Shown piece by piece: positions 42,560-49,163 of a DNA stretch of 64,000 nt. The stretch comes from Clostridia bacterium (GTDB lineage Bacteria; Bacillota; Clostridia; Oscillospirales; CAG-272): assembly GCA_017481595.1 (NCBI GenBank), contig JAFUOY010000026.1:1-64000 (forward strand). Reading direction: 5' to 3'. Numbering within the stretch: position 1 is the first letter of the stretch; each line of letters starts with the position of its first letter. A model generated the notes under the pieces. The model saw only the letters and a program-made list of their open reading frames with translations, made no database searches and was not told the origin of the DNA. A program made the position numbers and the translations under genes.

Positions 42560-43732
42560 TTATCTCCCTGCGTAGCCCGTTTCCTCAATAATATACTGTC
42601 CCTCGTCGGAAAGCATCCAGGTAATAAGCATATCCACGTTTTGGTTCGGGTTGTTTTCGTAGGTTACCGCGTATAAGTAAGTCGTTATGGGATAGGATTG
42701 GTTCTTTACGTTTTCAACCGTAGGCGCGATTCCGTCAATGGCGATCATTTTAAGCTCGGGATTTTGAATTATTCCCTCCACGTAATATCTGAAGGAGAAG
42801 CCGATAGAACCGGATCTGCTCTGATAATCCACCACCTGCTCAATGATCTCGCCCATACCCTTTATTTCCTTGGTTTTAGGGTCCATGATCGGAGTGTCAC
42901 CCATAAATCGGACAAGCATACTCTGGCTGCCGCTTCCCTTATTTCGTTGAAAAGCGACTATCTCCTCGTCGTTACCCCCAACCTCCTTCCAGTTGGTTAT
43001 CCGACCTGAGTAAATACCCTTTATCTGCTCAACACTTAAGCTGTCAATGGGGTTATCCTTGTGGACGAAGAATACAAACGCTTCAGTACCTATTGGAGTA
43101 TATTTGAAAACTGTATTCTGGCTCTTGGCGTATTCCACCTGCTCCTTTGAGGGAGATGCGCCAATAAATATATCCGTTTTCTTTTCGGCAAGCTTTTCAT
43201 ATCCGGCAACCGTGTTGTTGTACTCAAATACTCCGTCATACAGCTTTGTGGTTTCGGGATATACGGCGTTTACAAAAGCCGAATAAACAGGGAAGGCCGC
43301 CGCCGCGCCGTCAATAACAGGAAGAGGAAAATCATCCTCTAACTCGAAGGTCTGACTCTTGAACTTTACGATTTTAGACTCCTCTGTAAAGGGCATATAT
43401 TCGTTTACGTCAATATTTGGCGTTACGTCTATGGTAATGCTTTCCTCGTACCTTTCAATTCCGAAGAAAACGGAAAATATAATAAGTATAATAAGGATAC
43501 AGCATCCCCAAACTATAAGATATAGCTTCCTTTTTCTTGCCCATAAAAAGGGAATTACGGACGGAAGAAGAAAAATTGCGGCAGAAAATAAAATGGTGCT
43601 CGATACCTTTGGTAGCATAATGGCAAAAATAAGAAATAACATTCCCAAATAAAAGGACGCCACCAAAATTCCAATAGTCAAAATAGCCTTTATTATAACG
43701 ATAATCGTATTACGTCTGTCTGATTTTTCCAT
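42560..43732 (-). CDS. Membrane-anchored PstS-like substrate-binding protein
   Basis: This 390-residue protein joins three N-terminal transmembrane helices (about 9-35, 42-62, 70-92) to a PstS-type periplasmic-binding domain (about 125-390). The domain shows IDGAAAAFPVYSAFV, IFIGASPSKEQVEYA, the NPIDSLSVEQIKGIYSGRITNW stretch and QRNKGSGSQSMLVRFMG, the phosphate-binding loop pattern of PstS. Ordinary PstS proteins are lipoproteins or secreted; here the binding domain is tethered by a three-helix module. No pstCAB is adjacent. It may sense or bind phosphate or a related anion. Confidence 0.82.
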   Translation of the reverse strand: MEKSDRRNTIIVIIKAILTIGILVASFYLGMLFLIFAIMLPKVSSTILFSAAIFLLPSVIPFLWARKRKLYLIVWGCCILIILIIFSVFFGIERYEESITIDVTPNIDVNEYMPFTEESKIVKFKSQTFELEDDFPLPVIDGAAAAFPVYSAFVNAVYPETTKLYDGVFEYNNTVAGYEKLAEKKTDIFIGASPSKEQVEYAKSQNTVFKYTPIGTEAFVFFVHKDNPIDSLSVEQIKGIYSGRITNWKEVGGNDEEIVAFQRNKGSGSQSMLVRFMGDTPIMDPKTKEIKGMGEIIEQVVDYQSRSGSIGFSFRYYVEGIIQNPELKMIAIDGIAPTVENVKNQSYPITTYLYAVTYENNPNQNVDMLITWMLSDEGQYIIEETGYAGR

Positions 43733-43811: not shown

Positions 43812-43837
43812 GTGCTTCGCACATCTGCCATCGGCAT

Positions 43838-43937
43838 CAAAAAATAAAGCGGAGAAATCTCTCGAAATCTCCGCTTTTTATTAGCTTATGTGCAGATTAA
43901 AAGTTATTTGTGATTGCGCTATGCTTGTAAACCAAAC
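43838..43937 (-). repeat. Array 3' module T (terminator type), copy 1
   Basis: It contains the hairpin AAAGCGGAGA / TCTCCGCTTT (43847-43880), then TTATGTGCAGATTAAAAG and TGATTGCGC-ATGCTTGTAAA. It matches the better-conserved copies at 45151-45318 and 48140-48308. It lies directly downstream of the XRE-TPR gene and should terminate it. Confidence 0.8.
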
Positions 43938-43949
43938 TATATAAATCAA

Positions 43950-45026
43950 TTACGTATTCTCAAAATCTAATTCGTTGCGAACAAAATCAAATATTTTCAG
44001 TCTGCTAAACCTTATAACATCGTCTGTATTTGTAAATGTATAATTTTTTGTAAATCCGGAGGCATCTGACGTAGTAGCATTTACGAAAATACTTGTATAG
44101 TGTAGCTCTTTTTTTGGCAGGTTGTCATAGGATTTTGCATGATGAAATGCTTTCTTTAATGCCTCAATCGTCTTATCAGCTTTTTGCATTTTTGCATAGG
44201 ACATAGCAAGGGTCAAATATATTTTTTGAATTCTGCAATGGAAAAATTGATAATTTCCATCATAAATTAAGGTGTTCCACAATGTCAAAGCGGCATTACA
44301 CGCATCAATTTTATCTTCTTCTTTCTCATATTTTCCATAATATAAATTAGTCGTGAGGAGATCCATATAGTTAAGAATGTTATGATGCTTGATTGCTTTC
44401 TTTTTATCCTTGCTATCTTCCGTAAAGTATGCATGCTCAAGTAATGCTTCTCGACACACAAACAAGCTGCCCGCCATCATTGCATACTTAACCGCTGCAT
44501 CTTCATTGGCAATAGAAAGATCTTTTTGAGAGTACATATGAACTAAAGTTTGCAAAGCCGAGTTTCTTATATTACTTTCGGTACAATCTTTCAAAATACG
44601 CTCACATATTACAATGCTTTCTTTTGCATTTCTTTCAATTTCTTCGCTTTCTCCGCCAATATATACCGTTTCCTCTAAGGAAGATGCCAGGTTTATCAAA
44701 CAGTTGAAATCTCCGGGATATTTCTGAGTAGCTTCTCGCCATAGTGCAAGCAAGTTTTTTACATTGCCTTGATTTGAATATTCTTTGTCAAGCGCATAGT
44801 ATTTTTCCATTTCTTTTTCTTTTTCCTTTGGCGCGCGGTCAAATAATTCATCCAATGTAACATCAAAGAAATTTGCAAGCGCCAAAAGCGTGGTAACGTC
44901 CGGAACAGTTTTTCCGCTCTCCCATTGGGATACAGCGGGAACAGATACATAAAGATATTCAGCGAGTTGCTCCTGAGTCAGATCTCTCTCATGCCTGAAC
45001 TTTTTTATTTTAATGCCAATATTCAT
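43950..45026 (-). CDS. XRE-family regulator with TPR-like C-terminal domain
   Basis: This 358-residue protein has an HTH_3 domain at about 3-60 (KFRHERDLTQEQLAEYLYVS, SVPAVSQWESGKTVPDVTTL). The rest is all-helical and looks TPR-like (LLALWREATQKYPGDFNCLINLASSL; ALKKAFHHAKSYD). Such proteins often respond to peptides or metabolites through the TPR part, which is inference here. I chose the second ATG (45026), which is six bases from TGAGGT; the ATG at 45032 is too close. It is the distal member of the cassette-like array and shares its 3' module T with two other members. Confidence 0.82.
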   Translation of the reverse strand: MNIGIKIKKFRHERDLTQEQLAEYLYVSVPAVSQWESGKTVPDVTTLLALANFFDVTLDELFDRAPKEKEKEMEKYYALDKEYSNQGNVKNLLALWREATQKYPGDFNCLINLASSLEETVYIGGESEEIERNAKESIVICERILKDCTESNIRNSALQTLVHMYSQKDLSIANEDAAVKYAMMAGSLFVCREALLEHAYFTEDSKDKKKAIKHHNILNYMDLLTTNLYYGKYEKEEDKIDACNAALTLWNTLIYDGNYQFFHCRIQKIYLTLAMSYAKMQKADKTIEALKKAFHHAKSYDNLPKKELHYTSIFVNATTSDASGFTKNYTFTNTDDVIRFSRLKIFDFVRNELDFENT

Positions 45027-45069
45027 TTTCATACCTCATAAAATTATTCAAAAGCGCTCTTGTGATTAT

Positions 45070-45097
45070 ATTATATCATGATTTCGATTCTTTTCAA
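45070..45097 (-). promoter_or_regulatory. Predicted promoter of the XRE-TPR regulator gene
   Basis: Minus strand: TTGAAA (45097-45092), 16-base spacer, TATAAT (45075-45070). Confidence 0.55.
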
Positions 45098-45150
45098 GAT
45101 AGCGTTTCTAAACAAATATTTAAGCGCCGCTTAAAAACTTAAGCGGTGTG

Positions 45151-45318
45151 GTTCAAATTCTTTCAGTCGGCGAAAAATCGAAAATGGATCTATGAAAATC
45201 CAAAAAATGTTAGGCACGAAAAAACGGAGAAATCTTTCGAAATCTCCGCTTTTTATTAACTTATATATAGATTAAAAGTTATCTGTGACTGCGCAATGCT
45301 TGTAAACGAAGTCTATGT
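45151..45318 (-). repeat. Array 3' module T, copy 2 (full length)
   Basis: About 168 bases nearly identical to 48140-48308. The order on the plus strand is CGAAAAATCGAAAATGGATC, GTTAGGCACGAAAAAACGG, the hairpin CGGAGAAATC / GATTTCTCCG-type stem, TTATATATAGATTAAAAG and GTCTATGT just before the gene end. It acts as terminator for the ORF at 45323-45604. Confidence 0.88.
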
Positions 45319-45322
45319 GCAG

Positions 45323-45604
45323 TTAATCTTCCTTTGAAAACTTATTAAAGTATTTTTCGAGTTTTCTCTCTAAGAAAGGAGTGTATTTTTTATCCAAAGC
45401 CTTGAATATAAAGTGCAAGACAATTTCTAAAATGATGAATAATGCAAAATATCCTCCAATTGCAATCGCATAATATTGCCAAGAAAACGAATTTAACAAT
45501 CCAATTATGAGAAACAACGCAGGAAGAGCTAAAAATTCAATAATATCCCATATCACCATTCCAATACAAAGAATATTAGCAATAAAACCAATTATCTTTT
45601 TCAT
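45323..45604 (-). CDS. Small membrane protein with two transmembrane helices, array member
   Basis: This 93-residue protein has two hydrophobic segments (about 5-37 and 44-70) and a charged cytoplasmic C-terminus (KALDKKYTPFLERKLEKYFNKFSKED). I do not recognise the family. It has its own promoter (45628-45657) and the AAAGGAGAAC ribosome binding module shared with the next ORF, plus 3' module T. That independent transcription unit structure is common to all members of this array. Confidence 0.7.
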   Translation of the reverse strand: MKKIIGFIANILCIGMVIWDIIEFLALPALFLIIGLLNSFSWQYYAIAIGGYFALFIILEIVLHFIFKALDKKYTPFLERKLEKYFNKFSKED

Positions 45605-45748
45605 TTTATGTTCTCCTTTGCTGTTTCATTATACCCATAAATTCGTGAATATTGCAATCGGACAGCCGCCACTTGGCGATGATGGGCGCAAAAAGTTGTC
45701 CGAGGTCTGTCGGGCTGTCGCGCCATACTTGCAAACGAGGTCTATGTA
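45602..45748 (-). repeat. Array joint: shared promoter/RBS plus 3' module J, copy 1
   Basis: The spacer is nearly identical to 46195-46338. It contains a 5' module for the downstream ORF (TTGCAA 45657-45652, 18-base spacer, TATAAT 45633-45628, AAAGGAGAAC) and a 3' module for the upstream ORF (CTTGGCGATGATGGG, hairpins CGCC/GGCG and GGCGC/GCGCC, then CAAACGAGGTCTATGT). Confidence 0.85.
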
Positions 45749-45752
45749 AAAA

Positions 45753-46196
45753 TCATTTGCTCTGCTCAATACGGTATTGTAGCATATAAGTTATGTTATT
45801 ATATACAAATTCAAATCCTTCTGCTTCTTCAGTATCTTTTTCTATTATGCGCCATTCAACTTGAAATGGAAATGCTCCTGATTTTGTCCAAGTATTATCG
45901 ATCAGGGCTTCGTCAATCGAAAATGTCGCTTTGCTTTTTATTTGATAAAGTGTGGTTTTGTTTTGCTCTTTTGTATCAAATTTTACAATACTGAGTTGCT
46001 TTCCACGGATCAAAAAATCAATGTAATACCCTTCGCCTTCAGCCGCAAAAAAATAATCATATTCTTCATAGATAGATGACTCGTTCTTGCGTGCATCATC
46101 AAGGTTATAGCTGTAGCCATCAAAGGTTGTAGAACAGGCGCTAAAAATAAATGTTAAAGATAAAATTAGCGATAAAGTAAATAATAATTTTTTCAT
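45753..46196 (-). CDS. Predicted lipoprotein of unknown function, array member
   Basis: This 147-residue protein has a clear lipoprotein signal peptide with lipobox IFSA-Cys21 and a mature part that is mostly beta-strand and charged, ending TYMLQYRIEQSK. I do not recognise a family. It should sit on the outer face of the cytoplasmic membrane. It has its own promoter (TTGCAA-17-CGTAAT at 46248-46220), almost the same upstream module as the small membrane protein, and 3' module J. Confidence 0.72.
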   Translation of the reverse strand: MKKLLFTLSLILSLTFIFSACSTTFDGYSYNLDDARKNESSIYEEYDYFFAAEGEGYYIDFLIRGKQLSIVKFDTKEQNKTTLYQIKSKATFSIDEALIDNTWTKSGAFPFQVEWRIIEKDTEEAEGFEFVYNNITYMLQYRIEQSK

Positions 46197-46338
46197 TTTG
46201 CGTTCTCCTTTGCTGTTTCATTACGCCGCAAATTCGTGAATATTGCAATCGGACAGCCGCCCCTTGGCGATGATGGGCACAAAAAGTTATCCGAGGTCTT
46301 TCGGGCTTTTGCGTCAGCCTGTAAACGAAGTCTATGTA
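46195..46338 (-). repeat. Array joint: shared promoter/RBS plus 3' module J, copy 2
   Basis: Matches 45602-45748 over nearly its whole length: GTTCTCCTTTGCTGTTTCATT, ATTCGTGAATATTGCAATCG, CTTGGCGATGATGGG and GTAAACGAAGTCTATGT. The differences lie mainly in the hairpin loops. Confidence 0.85.
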
Positions 46339-46344
46339 GTGACT

Positions 46345-46902
46345 TTAGTTTTTAGTAAGCTCCCAATCGGAATAAATCAAATTAGCTTTTTTGTCCATAT
46401 CCCAAGGATATGTAAGCAAATTAAGCAAATACTTTGCGGGAGGGTTAGAAACGTATTTTTTATAGTCTTTTGCCGCTTTCCAAAATTCGTCCATCGTATA
46501 TTGAGTAGGGAGCTTTTGAAGCGTGACTCTGAACTCTGATTCTTGTTTTTCAGGCAAATCCAACCAACAGTTCGTTATCATTGGTTGTAGCTTGATTTCC
46601 GCATCTTCGAATTTCTGCTTGTGCTTGGAGTTATCTTGAAAACACTTTTCGATTTCCTTACGAATATCATCAGATACAGGTTTGACCCAAGCAATATCCT
46701 CATATGAAAAATCAATTCGGGGTTTCATTTTATCTGTAAAGCATTTTTTCAAAATTGCCCATTGTCCGATAATTTGTCCTTTTTTCCAACGAATACCCTC
46801 ACCAACATAATCCTCGGTGGCGATTTTGGGTTTGATATCAATCAATTGCCAATATCCCGAACCGTATCCTGTTACATAATCGCCAATTTTTACTTGAGAC
46901 AT
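46345..46902 (-). CDS. Hypothetical protein, array member
   Basis: This 185-residue cytoplasmic protein starts MSQVKIGDYVTGYGSGYWQ. The KIGDYV opening resembles small beta-barrel (SH3/KOW-like) proteins, with the aromatic GSGYWQLIDI following. The C-terminal half is helical. I do not recognise the family. A longer frame from 47031 would read through the promoter and repeat and is rejected. The promoter TTGAAA-17-TATAAT (46955-46927) and the ribosome-binding module AGAAAGGCGGTG are shared with the next two ORFs upstream, and the gene ends in 3' module J. Confidence 0.65.
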   Translation of the reverse strand: MSQVKIGDYVTGYGSGYWQLIDIKPKIATEDYVGEGIRWKKGQIIGQWAILKKCFTDKMKPRIDFSYEDIAWVKPVSDDIRKEIEKCFQDNSKHKQKFEDAEIKLQPMITNCWLDLPEKQESEFRVTLQKLPTQYTMDEFWKAAKDYKKYVSNPPAKYLLNLLTYPWDMDKKANLIYSDWELTKN

Positions 46903-46926
46903 AGTTACACCGCCTTTCTTAGGTTC

Positions 46927-46955
46927 ATTATACCACAAGTTTGTAAACATTTCAA
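46927..46955 (-). promoter_or_regulatory. Promoter of the ORF at 46345-46902 (array 5' module II)
   Basis: Minus strand TTGAAA, 17-base spacer, TATAAT. The segment from TTGAAA through TATAAT is identical to that at 48102-48074. Confidence 0.7.
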
Positions 46956-46970
46956 CCGTTCCGCGCCAAA

Positions 46971-47230
46971 TCACGCCGAAGGCGTGTATATCATCCGCAA
47001 CTTGTTGTGGTATATCATCAATGCGAAGCATTGTATATCATCAAGCCGCAGGTAGATACACGCTGACGCGTGATGAGATGCACGGCGTTGCCGTGATGAT
47101 ATCCAGCCCCGCAGGGGCTGATGATATGCCAAGCCTGCGGGAACCCCCAAAGCTCGGCAAGCTCGCTTCGGGGAACCCCTACTGCGGCTTGGATAAAAAA
47201 ATCCGCATTCTTTCGAATGCGGATTTTTTG
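46971..47230. repeat. Long mosaic hairpin repeat, copy 1 (occupied by short hairpin element)
   Basis: A series of 10-16 base hairpins (CACGCCGAAGGCGTG, CCGCAACTTGTTGTGG, AATGCGAAGCATT, CACGGCGTTGCCGTG, CAGCCCCGCAGGGGCTG) is separated by TATATCATC on the left and its complement TGATGATAT on the right. The whole is thus a large inverted repeat. It ends with a terminator-like stem ATCCGCATTC / GAATGCGGAT. It matches 48877-49088 except for an extra 47 bases (47141-47187). Confidence 0.88.
47141..47187 (-). mobile_element. Short hairpin element, copy 3, inserted with apparent 6-bp target duplication
   Basis: The 41-base hairpin (GAACCCCCAAAGCTC ... CTTCGGGGAACCCCTA) is flanked by CTGCGG on both sides (47135-47140 and 47182-47187). 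The other copy of the host repeat has a single CTGCGG at 49041-49046 and no hairpin. The hairpin is the reverse complement of the type at 3787 and 38551. Confidence 0.75.
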
Positions 47231-47280
47231 TGATACCACTACAAAATAGATCCATATAAGGCTATCGTACAAAAACAGTC

Positions 47281-47388
47281 CGTAATTTTTGCCGTGAGGG
47301 TAGACTTACCCCTTGGTGATGATGGGAGTTAAAAGCATCCGCGTTCTACCGGAATTTTAACTCCATGTTTGTAAACGAATCTATGTAA
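47281..47388 (-). repeat. Array 3' module J, copy 3 (diverged)
   Basis: It keeps CTTGGTGATGATGGG and TGTAAACGAATCTATGTAA but has a different, perfectly paired stem: GGAGTTAAAA (47325-47334) / TTTTAACTCC (47355-47364). It should terminate the ORF at 47390-48049. Bases 47231-47280 hold nothing I recognise. Confidence 0.75.
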
Positions 47389-47389
47389 G

Positions 47390-48049
47390 TCAAAACACTT
47401 TAATATTGTTTGAAGTTACGAAATAAAAATTGAAAAAATCTTTTTTCGCTTCATCGCTAATTCTTACTGCAGTGCGGCGTACTTTATTGTCAAATTCCAT
47501 TTTTAATGGTTTTGTGATTGATTTGATTCTTTCAACCAGAGTTTCGTAGGTTTGGAAATCATCCAAATCCGCACATTCAACTATACCTGCCGAATGCTTT
47601 TCGGTATCCTTTTCATATTCAATTTTTGTGGGAAAATACAAACACAATCCACATACATTTTCGGGAAATTCAGTAACAGAAAAAGAAGTTGAAAGTTGAT
47701 CTTTCCACGGCAGGAAGCAAAATGTATCAATGAAAGGACATGGTTCTTTGAAATTGGGCACACATAATTTGGTGTATGGTTGATAAATGCAATTTTCAAG
47801 ATGAGCGGTTATGCCTGTGGAAAAATGCGCAATATCATAATCTGTGTTCCAAACCAATTTAACGCCATTTTTCAGTTTTTCGTATAATGTATCATAGGTA
47901 AAGAGAAAATCGTTTGGATTACTTTCCACATAATTTTTTCGTACACCAGTGTTTACAACAACATGGTGAAACCCTTGCAAAATTTTTCGAAGCTCGTCAG
48001 GTGTTACGATGAAATGAAGCTTTTTGTTGGATAGTTCATAGTATTGCAT
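47390..48049 (-). CDS. Hypothetical Cys-containing protein, array member
   Basis: This 219-residue cytoplasmic protein starts MQYYELSNKKLHFIVTPDEL. It contains several Cys residues (CIYQPYTKLC, PCPFIDTFC, CGLC) but no clear zinc-finger spacing. I do not recognise the family. The ATG at 48097 lies in the promoter module and is rejected. The promoter TTGAAA-17-TATAAT (48102-48074) and AGAAAGGCGGTGG ribosome-binding module match those of neighbouring array members, and the 3' end carries diverged module J. Confidence 0.65.
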   Translation of the reverse strand: MQYYELSNKKLHFIVTPDELRKILQGFHHVVVNTGVRKNYVESNPNDFLFTYDTLYEKLKNGVKLVWNTDYDIAHFSTGITAHLENCIYQPYTKLCVPNFKEPCPFIDTFCFLPWKDQLSTSFSVTEFPENVCGLCLYFPTKIEYEKDTEKHSAGIVECADLDDFQTYETLVERIKSITKPLKMEFDNKVRRTAVRISDEAKKDFFNFYFVTSNNIKVF

Positions 48050-48073
48050 TTTTCCACCGCCTTTCTGTTTTTT

Positions 48074-48102
48074 ATTATACCACAAGTTTGTAAACATTTC
48101 AA
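48074..48102 (-). promoter_or_regulatory. Promoter of the ORF at 47390-48049 (array 5' module II)
   Basis: Minus strand TTGAAA (48102-48097), 17-base spacer, TATAAT (48079-48074), the same as at 46955-46927. Confidence 0.7.
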
Positions 48103-48139
48103 CCGTTTCGCAAGCGATTCTCGGAGGGAGGCTTTCGGT

Positions 48140-48308
48140 AGTTCGAATCCTTCAGCTTGAAGAAAAATCGAAAATGGATCTACGAAACTTTGAAAAAAGT
48201 TAGGCACGAAAAAACGGAGAAATCTTTTGAAATCTCCGCTTTTTATTAACTTATATATAGATTAAAAGTTATTTGTGACTGCGCAATGCTTGTAAATGAG
48301 GTCTATGT
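48140..48308 (-). repeat. Array 3' module T, copy 3 (full length)
   Basis: Nearly identical to 45151-45318, including GTTAGGCACGAAAAAACGG, the CGGAGAAATC hairpin, TTATATATAGATTAAAAG and GTCTATGT before the gene end. The upstream end has GTAGTTCGAATCCTTCAGC, which resembles a tRNA T-arm. Confidence 0.88.
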
Positions 48309-48314
48309 AAAAGT

Positions 48315-48788
48315 TTAATAAGTATTTTCCTTGTCAAGTACCCATGGAATATTTGCGTCAAATTCTATCTGCAATATTGGTGCTTCAAATTGTTCCTCAA
48401 CCATAAGACATTCTTCTTGGAATGATATGTGAAAATTTTTATCCAAGTGATAGGTCAAATCAGTATTATAATAAGAATGCGTTTCTGATATGTTAACCCA
48501 AGCGCTTTTCCCTTGAATCAATGTTCCGCACACATGGCAGAACCCGCCATAAAGCAAAGTACCATCGTCATTTTTACAATTCACATAACATTCTACAATC
48601 TTTTTTAGATCAACACCCAAGGTGTCGAAAAATGTACGTACAGTTTTGGGTAAGATATCGGCGGCTTTTTCAAAGTTTTGGCAACCGTCACAATCGCAGC
48701 CTTGCGTAATCAATGGCAGTTCTTTATATATCTGTCTTGTTTTTTCAACATCAATATCAACTACATAGTTGTCGAAGGTAAAAATCAT
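48315..48788 (-). CDS. Hypothetical protein with CDCDGC metal-binding-like motif, array member
   Basis: This 157-residue protein starts MIFTFDNYVVDIDVEKTRQIY. It has GCDCDGCQNFEKAA near residue 30 (Cys-x-Cys-x2-Cys) and a second pair in GGFCHVCGTL near residue 85, so it may bind zinc. Similar CDCxxCxNY proteins of unknown function are, to my knowledge, common in gut Bacillota. The C-terminus is beta-rich. The ATG at 48875 is rejected because it lies upstream of the promoter (TTGCAA-17-TATATT, 48841-48813). The ribosome-binding module is AGAAAGGCGGTGG, and the 3' end carries module T. It is the member closest to tRNA-Trp. Confidence 0.7.
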   Translation of the reverse strand: MIFTFDNYVVDIDVEKTRQIYKELPLITQGCDCDGCQNFEKAADILPKTVRTFFDTLGVDLKKIVECYVNCKNDDGTLLYGGFCHVCGTLIQGKSAWVNISETHSYYNTDLTYHLDKNFHISFQEECLMVEEQFEAPILQIEFDANIPWVLDKENTY

Positions 48789-48812
48789 TTTATCCACCGC
48801 CTTTCTGGTTTT

Positions 48813-48841
48813 AATATAGCACACTTTGGGACGGATTGCAA
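48813..48841 (-). promoter_or_regulatory. Promoter of the ORF at 48315-48788
   Basis: Minus strand TTGCAA (48841-48836), 17-base spacer, TATATT (48818-48813). Confidence 0.65.
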
Positions 48842-48876
48842 GAGCTTGGATAAAATCCGTTTGCGCGAAGCGCACA

Positions 48877-49088
48877 TCACGCCGAAGGCGTGTATATCAT
48901 CCGCAACTTGTTGCGGTATATCATCAATGCGAAGCATTGTATATCATCAAGCCGCAGAAAAATGCACGCTGGCGCGTGAGGAGATGCACGGCGTTGCCGT
49001 GATGATATCCAGCCCCGCAGGGGCTGATGATATGCCAAGCCTGCGGCTTAGATAAAAAAATCCGCATTCTTTCGAATGCGGATTTTTT
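48877..49088. repeat. Long mosaic hairpin repeat, copy 2 (empty site)
   Basis: Matches 46971-47230 without the inserted hairpin. The final stem ATCCGCATTC / GAATGCGGAT with T-runs (49054-49088) directly follows the tRNA-Trp 3' end on the minus strand and should terminate the tRNA transcript. Confidence 0.88.
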
Positions 49089-49163
49089 GGCAGGGGCGCA
49101 AAGACTCGAACTCTGGACATGCAGTTTTGGAGACTGCCGTTCTACCAACTGAACTACACCCCT
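49088..49163 (-). tRNA. tRNA-Trp (anticodon CCA)
   Basis: A 76-base cloverleaf on the minus strand. The acceptor is AGGGGTG / CGCCCCT, the D arm GTTC-AGTTGGTA-GAAC, and the anticodon stem GCAGT / ACTGC with loop CTCCAAA, giving anticodon CCA. The T arm is CAGAG-TTCGAGT-CTTTG, the discriminator is G and CCA is encoded. The array of accessory ORFs begins at its 3' side, a common integration position. Confidence 0.97.

Follow-up and report, generated by a model that had tools for sequence, protein, structure and literature searches.

Integrons are the standard case of the capture of genes one at a time, and their attC sites carry boxes with the consensus RYYYAAC ... GTTRRRY. The 3' ends of tRNA genes are classic targets of tyrosine integrases, and some tycheposons lack a recombinase of their own. 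In the cited parts of the respective sources, CALIN are described as cassette arrays without an integrase that can be mobilized in trans (PMC11389934), rAID are defined by a tyrosine recombinase found with the array (PMC12247911), and tycheposons are elements of 4-200 kb with the tyrosine recombinase xerD (PMC10872708). For Dehalococcoides, the cited part of PMC3146451 describes islands serially inserted at the 3' end of an RNA gene (ssrA) by a serine recombinase; a 20-bp repeat of ssrA bounds tandem islands, many of which share an integration module that is absent from some.

The window analyzed here (64,000 nucleotides from a Clostridia bacterium) contains six ORFs in an array beside a tRNA-Trp(CCA) gene (49088..49163), all of them, like every array feature placed below, on the minus strand. 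From comparison of the sequences we estimate a probability of roughly 80% that this region consists of mobile units without an integrase, arrayed by serial insertion at the 3' end of the tRNA gene, which anchors the array and ends in ..CTGCCA, the proposed insertion junction. Immediately 3' of the tRNA lies a terminator (49055..49087), then the first copy of a palindromic block (48873..49046). This 174-bp block, found again after J3 (46967..47140), is a dispersed repeat that also occurs on nine other contigs of the same genome and is not specific to the system. The ORF of unit 1 (48315..48788; 157 aa), whose 78% identical homologue is the first gene past tRNA-Trp in another genome (G024, locus L060), is followed by a degenerate unit boundary, i.e., a tail of the module called J and then a terminator called T (48196..48309). 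A type II promoter and ribosome binding site (48047..48111; TTGAAA, 17 nt, TATAAT; AGAAAGGCGGTG) lead into the ORF of unit 2 (47390..48049; 219 aa). Behind it stand J3 (47229..47387), the sole complete J right end in the window, of alpha (Trp) type and with the terminus ..TATCACA, and a second terminator (47196..47228) identical in sequence to the one after the tRNA. Unit 3 (ORF 46345..46902; 185 aa) shares 94% DNA identity, from ribosome binding site to J start, with a locus in another genus (L136). The J cores J2 (46230..46338) and J1 (45639..45748), which follow unit 3 and unit 4 (ORF 45753..46196; 147 aa), respectively, are without right-end repeats and continue directly into a promoter. 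Homologues of the unit 5 ORF (45323..45604; 93 aa) occur in the tRNA-Trp arrays L060, L205 and L112; after this ORF come a J tail, a T terminator and a left-end TAGATCCAT motif (45206..45318). The ORF of unit 6 (43950..45032; 360 aa) is of the HTH_3/XRE type, and a diverged tail with a T terminator (43836..43941) forms the distal edge of the array.

Overall, the array is partly decayed, with one complete J, two copies without right-end repeats and three tails. An earlier note on this stretch had listed the six minus-strand ORFs, copies of T and J as two 3' modules and two types of 5' flank, all of which are present. The conserved tail that it saw before the stop codon of every ORF exists as well, but the ACATAG tail sits past the stop codon in the coding direction, where it starts J, and it has diverged at the ORF at 43950. 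Similarly, three J modules can be found, but only J3 is complete, and the three copies of T, which are mutually 87-96% alike, lie at sites that consist of a J tail and then the T terminator. Relatives place T in the left end of the unit; T and J are thus the left and right ends of units instead of alternative 3' modules that can be freely interchanged. The role of the tRNA gene as an anchor and the partial degeneracy of the window copy had been overlooked. The flanking gene at 42560-43732 was found in its own genome only and therefore gave no empty site.

In complete form, J is a right end of approx. 158 bp that begins near the stop codon (no more than 20 nt away in 80 of 108 cases), contains a covarying hairpin, terminates in ..CACA or ..GCCA and usually lies upstream of a terminator. 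Covariation in the hairpin was represented by 112 cells with a double change, a number reached in 0 of 500 shuffles; a simple hairpin holds across variants, while the second stem of a pseudoknot, judged by eye, fails. The hairpin may protect the 3' end of the mRNA or bind an accessory factor. A DNA search recovered J in 15 of 96 relatives, and a covariance model matched in 126 of 395 genomes of the same Clostridia family, representing 40 of 71 genera; because of this recovery, the modules are judged to be more than chance similarities. The 151 ORFs adjacent to J fell into 81 clusters, and several homology breakpoints among relatives fall at module edges, as the earlier note had anticipated for a promoter-bearing gene-cassette system, an interpretation that these data support. 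Counts from the scan of genome contigs are to be read as "at least", and among the non-Clostridia matches listed in that scan there was no convincing J. Rfam gave no above-chance match for J, and the phage and plasmid collections yielded none for a J of 161 bp; viral contigs with 17-mer hits matched J only weakly (E of about 1e-5 to 1e-3), which we attribute to chance.

The genes carried are unrelated between units, although some are common to different genera. Units typically hold a single gene, with two- or three-gene units also seen. The most populous cluster next to J, with 18 of the 151 ORFs, resembles the HTH_3/XRE ORF of unit 6 in general type, and the homologue of the ORF at 46345 had no adjacent J in 11 of 13 genomes. 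The loci come largely from metagenome-assembled genomes (contamination 8% in G044 and 7% in G253), and in 33 of 58 loci a contig end lies less than 2 kb from a J, where random placement of a single point per locus would give 12.4; these breaks may be due to repeats and not to strain variation.

We found a consistent association of J arrays with tRNA genes. More than 3 kb of upstream sequence was available for 39 of 60 loci (the other 21 lie less than 2.4 kb from a contig end), and all 39 have a tRNA gene upstream on the J strand. This was tRNA-Trp or tRNA-Gln within 4 kb in 36 loci, tRNA-Gln in two more (L135, 8.6 kb away; L056, 9.2 kb away), and tRNA-Val in one (L141). A second set showed the anchoring again in 12 of its 13 new loci that had over 3 kb of upstream sequence; exceptions overall were a locus without a tRNA (L178), one with tRNA-Gln on the opposite strand (L220) and the tRNA-Val locus. 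The type of the right end was associated with the tRNA: J right ends were 23 alpha/beta, 1 gamma and 2 unassigned at tRNA-Trp, and 0 alpha/beta, 25 gamma and 5 unassigned at tRNA-Gln (P = 4e-13, counted by J; Fisher's exact test). Counted by locus, alpha/beta to gamma ratios were 15:1 for tRNA-Trp and 0:17 for tRNA-Gln, and copies of the left-arm motif showed the same division (7:1 and 0:13, respectively). L125, the exception to this match, has gamma at both ends. Moreover, a terminator complementary to the anchoring tRNA follows J in 10 of 58 loci as compared to 47 of 11,600 control windows, and the same tRNA flank is joined to different content in the window and in two other genomes (G023 and G011).

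In the cases examined, unit edges were precise to the base. Among 27 left ends, 11 follow the CCA of tRNA-Gln (in 11 loci), 10 follow a J end, 2 a copy of the tRNA-Trp 3' end and 3 another ..GTACCA, with 1 degenerate; 21 abut tRNA ..CCA or J ..CA to the base. Many units begin with a generic terminator and repeat rather than this canonical left end. When right and left gamma ends were joined, 20 of the 23 consensus positions centred on CA were palindromic, while no more than 17 were in any of 2000 shuffles; six natural joints scored 16-20 and joints with a tRNA 8-12. For joined alpha/beta ends palindromy was not significant (860 and 145 of 2000 shuffles reached their scores). CA represents the only bases common to the unit end and the tRNA at the crossover. 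In 13 of 38 loci, segments of 18-195 bp recur on either side of units, as does a segment of 91 bp in L436, a pattern that the proposed insertion explains only in part. Copies of the tRNA 3' end, which in CIME-like arrays would form a bounding direct repeat, occur in 6 loci of the scanned set, and J ends take that place elsewhere.

Left ends that abut tRNA or J ends, a fixed orientation and ends matched to the tRNA point to serial, site-specific insertion at the tRNA 3' end. A full unit runs from a left end (a short arm and a T-type terminator) through promoter, ORF, stop codon and J hairpin to the right-end repeats. Units may move as circles whose joined ends form the attachment site, with the tRNA 3' end as the receiving site and a candidate recombinase acting in trans; the tRNA would then take the role of attI and J that of attC. 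The attP sites of serine integrases span approx. 50 bp, with inverted repeats around a central dinucleotide that is shared with attB. The gamma ends form an inverted repeat on CA, the sole bases shared with the tRNA, and thus fit a serine recombinase. Such an enzyme, with CA as the crossover dinucleotide, is our leading candidate for gamma units, held at slightly less than even odds. A serine recombinase (a protein with PF00239 and PF07508) is present at the tRNA-Gln junction in a relative (G044); another, beside a J unit in L066, was rejected, as its element starts inside the terminator and not at the CA junction. No recombinase was among the families listed (25 of 41 Pfam, 25 of 49 PHROG) for 79 of the 81 J-adjacent cluster representatives.

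Mobilization of the same architecture in trans by an ordinary phage or ICE tyrosine integrase that uses tRNA-Trp or tRNA-Gln, as for satellites and cis-mobilizable elements, appears unlikely, though it is the most serious competitor. The classic use of tRNA 3' ends by these enzymes favors it, as do an integrase-like ORF (judged by eye) after tRNA-Trp in G005 (L372) and PF00589 proteins in 12 of 12 scanned genomes with J. However, tyrosine integrases have a 6-8 bp overlap at the crossover, as compared to CA alone here, and 30 PF00589 loci contained no J and only single short motif matches (L305 and L313). One widespread group of tyrosine recombinases (L317) showed no clear association with J (present in 42 of 126 genomes with J vs. 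67 of 269 without; P = 0.09). A XerC/D-like recombinase of the window's own genome (L301) was also rejected, as J and the arm motif are absent from its 3.5-kb locus. No tyrosine recombinase heading an array was noticed by eye among the ORFs listed for annotated J loci.

Exchange of units purely by homologous recombination between conserved linkers would require no site-specific step. Different loci share linkers with about 65-95% similarity even where their ORFs differ, and T-J fusions and truncated J copies suggest that such events occur; as the sole explanation it is nevertheless improbable, given joints with the tRNA-Gln CCA that recur precisely in 11 loci and end types that match the tRNA. 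Even less probable is that J is a regulatory RNA of the 3' UTR and the arrays are accessory-gene islands without cassette mobility. The placement of J after the stop codon and before a terminator and its covarying hairpin would suit that role, but J orientation was uniform in all 31 loci with multiple J (48 neighbor pairs, partial copies counted) and stayed unchanged where enclosed genes run the opposite way (L070 and L009), and neither the anchoring to two tRNAs with matched ends nor the base-precise CCA joints fit it. RNA-templated insertion, by a reverse transcriptase that recognizes J as a 3' end and uses the mRNA to write a copy next to the tRNA gene, is very improbable, as RVT_1 was unmatched in 9 of 12 genomes with J of at least 93% completeness and the unit includes promoter and precise left end, despite the precise right end and duplicated flanks that might suggest it.

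Site-specific insertion by a recombinase acting in trans is our preferred reading, and it invites comparison with known systems. As in integrons and CALIN, unrelated genes form arrays with a conserved hairpin-bearing site at the gene 3' end, uniform in orientation despite occasional reversed genes. Unlike in integrons, the 3' end of a tRNA serves as the receiving site, the crossover shares only CA, and each unit has a promoter and terminator of its own. In integrons the recombination substrate is a folded single-stranded site; the covariation of the J hairpin would suit a role as RNA or as DNA alike. The attC boxes were absent from both strands of all 98 J (shuffles would give 0.7), and J was therefore dropped as an attC site; the integron integrase (TIGR02249) had no match over the cut-off in the 395 family genomes, many of them incomplete, and 5 weaker ones. 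The J array looks integron-like but built from different parts. Serial accretion at a 3' end and, apparently, the lack of an integration module in some islands are shared with cis-mobilizable elements and with the Dehalococcoides islands as far as the cited part of their description goes; compared to that part, units here are approx. 1-2 kb and have standard J and left ends, two tRNA types and matched ends. Serial insertion in fixed orientation at a tRNA 3' end, as used to recognize CIME-like elements, is found here, insertion being judged from the joints. Co-oriented short genes and conserved intergenic motifs recall rAID, and the cargo includes one Imm26 protein; compared to the cited definition of rAID, no tyrosine recombinase was noticed by eye in the annotated arrays and the cargo is broader. 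Tycheposons likewise are cargo elements bounded by tRNA, and the cited part of their description (PMC10872708) does not mention a J-like end.

In the open-licence PMC literature we found no description of a tRNA-anchored system of J-ended cassettes. We tentatively suggest, with somewhat more doubt than belief, that this is a second, independently evolved bacterial system of cassette capture, in which tRNA-Trp and tRNA-Gln receive promoter-bearing, J-ended units through a serine recombinase acting at the CA of CCA. The arrays allow a test of whether arrays of single-gene cassettes have more than one evolutionary origin. Their anchoring at tRNA genes may explain the frequent assembly breaks at these sites, and J together with a tRNA gene provides a ready marker for mining cargo genes of unknown kind. 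With its presence in 40 of 71 genera sampled, such a system would give these gut bacteria a major route for the exchange of small accessory genes.

The repeated-flank array that the earlier note had read as a row of promoter-bearing gene cassettes was seen in the window, where six minus-strand ORFs with the flanks it described lie downstream of tRNA-Trp. Further module copies occur on contig C3 of the same genome (locus L009; the genome is 62% complete), and on its contig C1 a tRNA-Gln is followed by a unit with the type II promoter, one of the two repeated 5' modules, at the contig end (L017). When relatives were searched for the modules, as that note had proposed, J, the right end of the unit, was present in 15 of 96 by DNA search, and a covariance model built from an alignment of 32 J copies, which gave the hairpin, matched 126 of 395 CAG-272 genomes and 40 of 71 genera (at most 10 candidates were scored per genome; J copy numbers are thus lower bounds). 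Among 62 fetched loci, nearly all picked for J matches, 60 contained a total of 108 complete or partial J. Outside the family, two further families of its taxonomic order also have full J copies, downstream of tRNA-Gln (L061, G068) and tRNA-Trp (L071, G090).

J starts within 20 nt of the stop codon in 80 of 108 copies and supplies the stop codon itself in 15 cases. Among 94 distinct J, 92.7% of hairpin cells are paired, as compared to 87.1% in shuffles (reached by 0 of 500); helix 2 shows double changes in 5 of 6 pairs, and sliding the hairpin partners drops pairing to 37-58%. Of 98 copies, 50 had a recognizable J end, 44 of them with it at 157-160 bp, and right-end repeats (alpha, beta or gamma) were assigned in 80 of the 98, leaving 18 unassigned. 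A terminator of variable sequence usually follows. Each of the 31 loci with multiple J (L103 and L105 come from contigs of a single genome that overlap) had them all in the same orientation, including L070 and L009, where genes between J are reversed. In the window, a 174-bp chain of short hairpins is placed after terminators (48873-49046 and 46967-47140), with related copies on nine further contigs of the genome; in relatives, other repeat families seem to occupy its place.

A tRNA gene was located < 4 kb upstream, on the J strand, in 37 of 60 loci (Trp or Gln in 36, Val in one); tRNA-Gln lies at 8.6 kb in L135 and, after sequence extension, at 9.2 kb in L056, while in the other 21 loci the contig ends < 2.4 kb away. 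A second collection added 36 new loci; of the 13 with > 3 kb upstream, 12 carry tRNA-Gln or tRNA-Trp in the orientation of J, the exception being L178, where no tRNA was seen. Among the shorter loci, tRNA-Gln was found on the J strand in L143 and on the opposite strand in L220. The right-end type follows the tRNA: 23 alpha/beta, 1 gamma and 2 unassigned ends at tRNA-Trp, against 0, 25 and 5 at tRNA-Gln (P = 4 × 10-13; Fisher's exact test on assigned J, some of them not independent). Counted per locus, alpha/beta to gamma ratios were 15:1 for Trp and 0:17 for Gln, and left-arm motif copies were concordant (7:1 and 0:13, respectively). The sole exception, L125, has gamma at both ends.

A search with the gamma repeat gave matches mostly beside J and also an inverted variant, which represents the left end. 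Among 27 left ends read, 11 (from 11 genomes) directly follow the CCA of tRNA-Gln, 10 are joined to the end of a J (gamma in 7, alpha/beta in 3), 2 to a tRNA-Trp 3' copy (L109, L137) and 3 to another GTACCA (L430, L436); the remaining one, in L054, is degenerate. In L437 the order is tRNA-Gln CCA, a left end, genes, J ending in CACA and a second left end. A canonical left end is absent from many units, which begin with a generic terminator and repeat. The bases that follow J match those that follow the tRNA, starting within 2 bases and for 18-195 bp, in 13 of 38 loci, a likeness also seen by eye in the window. Moreover, 10 of 58 loci have a terminator after J with complementarity to the 3' end of that tRNA (9 at the last J; two are duplicate copies of the same contig), as compared to 47 of 11,600 control windows. 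These results suggest that J ends occupy the former position of the tRNA end.

Stretches of approx. 100-270 bp after the tRNA that end in a tRNA 3' copy were observed in L123, L125, L131, L136, L374 and L375 (the last two by eye) and could be either remnants or mobile units of minimal size. In L436 (G257:C54), a 91-bp segment separates tRNA-Gln from the first unit; the segment behind this unit has an identical end, and the two resemble a long direct repeat flanking it.

The bases after tRNA-Trp differ widely within the genus, a few species pairs have the first stretch in common, and three contigs break off no more than 5 bases from the tRNA end. Relatives differ in J content: the upstream flank of the window is common to G023 (978 bp, 71%) and G011, but a single J unit (L059) is present in G023 and none in G011. 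In G024, whose upstream flank is not recognizably that of the window, the sequence after tRNA-Trp opens with a 48315 ORF homologue (78%), then J, then a 45323 ORF homologue; in the window, three extra units separate these two ORFs. From RBS to J start, the 46345 ORF shows 94% DNA identity to a unit in another genus, while promoter and J body differ; among 13 genomes with homologues, these two alone showed J beside the ORF. Downstream of one homologue (L288, G294:C98) the stretch from stop codon to terminator is different and is perhaps another end family. A search of 28 further members of the genus at 1e-40 gave no match to the gene at 42560-43732, at the distal array edge, and the variable region may thus reach past the J units. 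Of 58 loci, 33 have a J < 2 kb from an end of the contig; one point placed at random on each contig would give 12.4.

The 151 ORFs adjoining 177 J formed 81 clusters (some contigs are present in both collections), and matches for 79 of the 81 representatives fell into 41 Pfam families. The 25 families listed include acetyltransferases, an Imm26 protein, HTH proteins, sigma factors, an ABC transporter and DUFs, with no recombinase among them. In 198,549 bp of array, the type II promoter core was found at 31 positions (21 of 60 loci), all of them in sense orientation; 205,166 bp of control sequence contained none.

Serial, site-specific insertion of units at tRNA 3' ends would explain why the orientation is fixed, why ends are precise and of matched type, and why units accrete. 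At the crossover, only CA is common to unit and tRNA. When gamma ends are joined, they make up an inverted repeat around CA (consensus 20/23; highest value in 2000 shuffles, 17), which is how a serine-integrase attP is built; six natural gamma joints scored 16-20 and tRNA joints 8-12, while joined alpha/beta ends were below significance in the shuffle test. A candidate mover is a large serine recombinase (Resolvase, Recombinase and zinc-ribbon domains) in G044, a genome with 8% contamination (L056 191-1684 and L440 18785-18860, on G044:C139). Its gene lies upstream of two gamma J units, approx. 330 bp from tRNA-Gln and pointing towards it, between the tRNA CCA and a CAGCCA joint (by eye). The element begins immediately behind CCA, and its other end seems to be GCTCAGCCA. 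A tyrosine recombinase group that was tested showed no clear association with J, and 9 of 12 genomes with J had no reverse transcriptase match.

The system looks and probably works like an integron, from which it differs in two defining features, as no integron integrase above the cut-off was found in the family genomes searched and no attC boxes in J. Tandem accretion at tRNA genes fits the J arrays, which differ from it, however, in their standardized small units, structured J end and tRNA-matched ends, for which a search of open-licence literature found no precedent.
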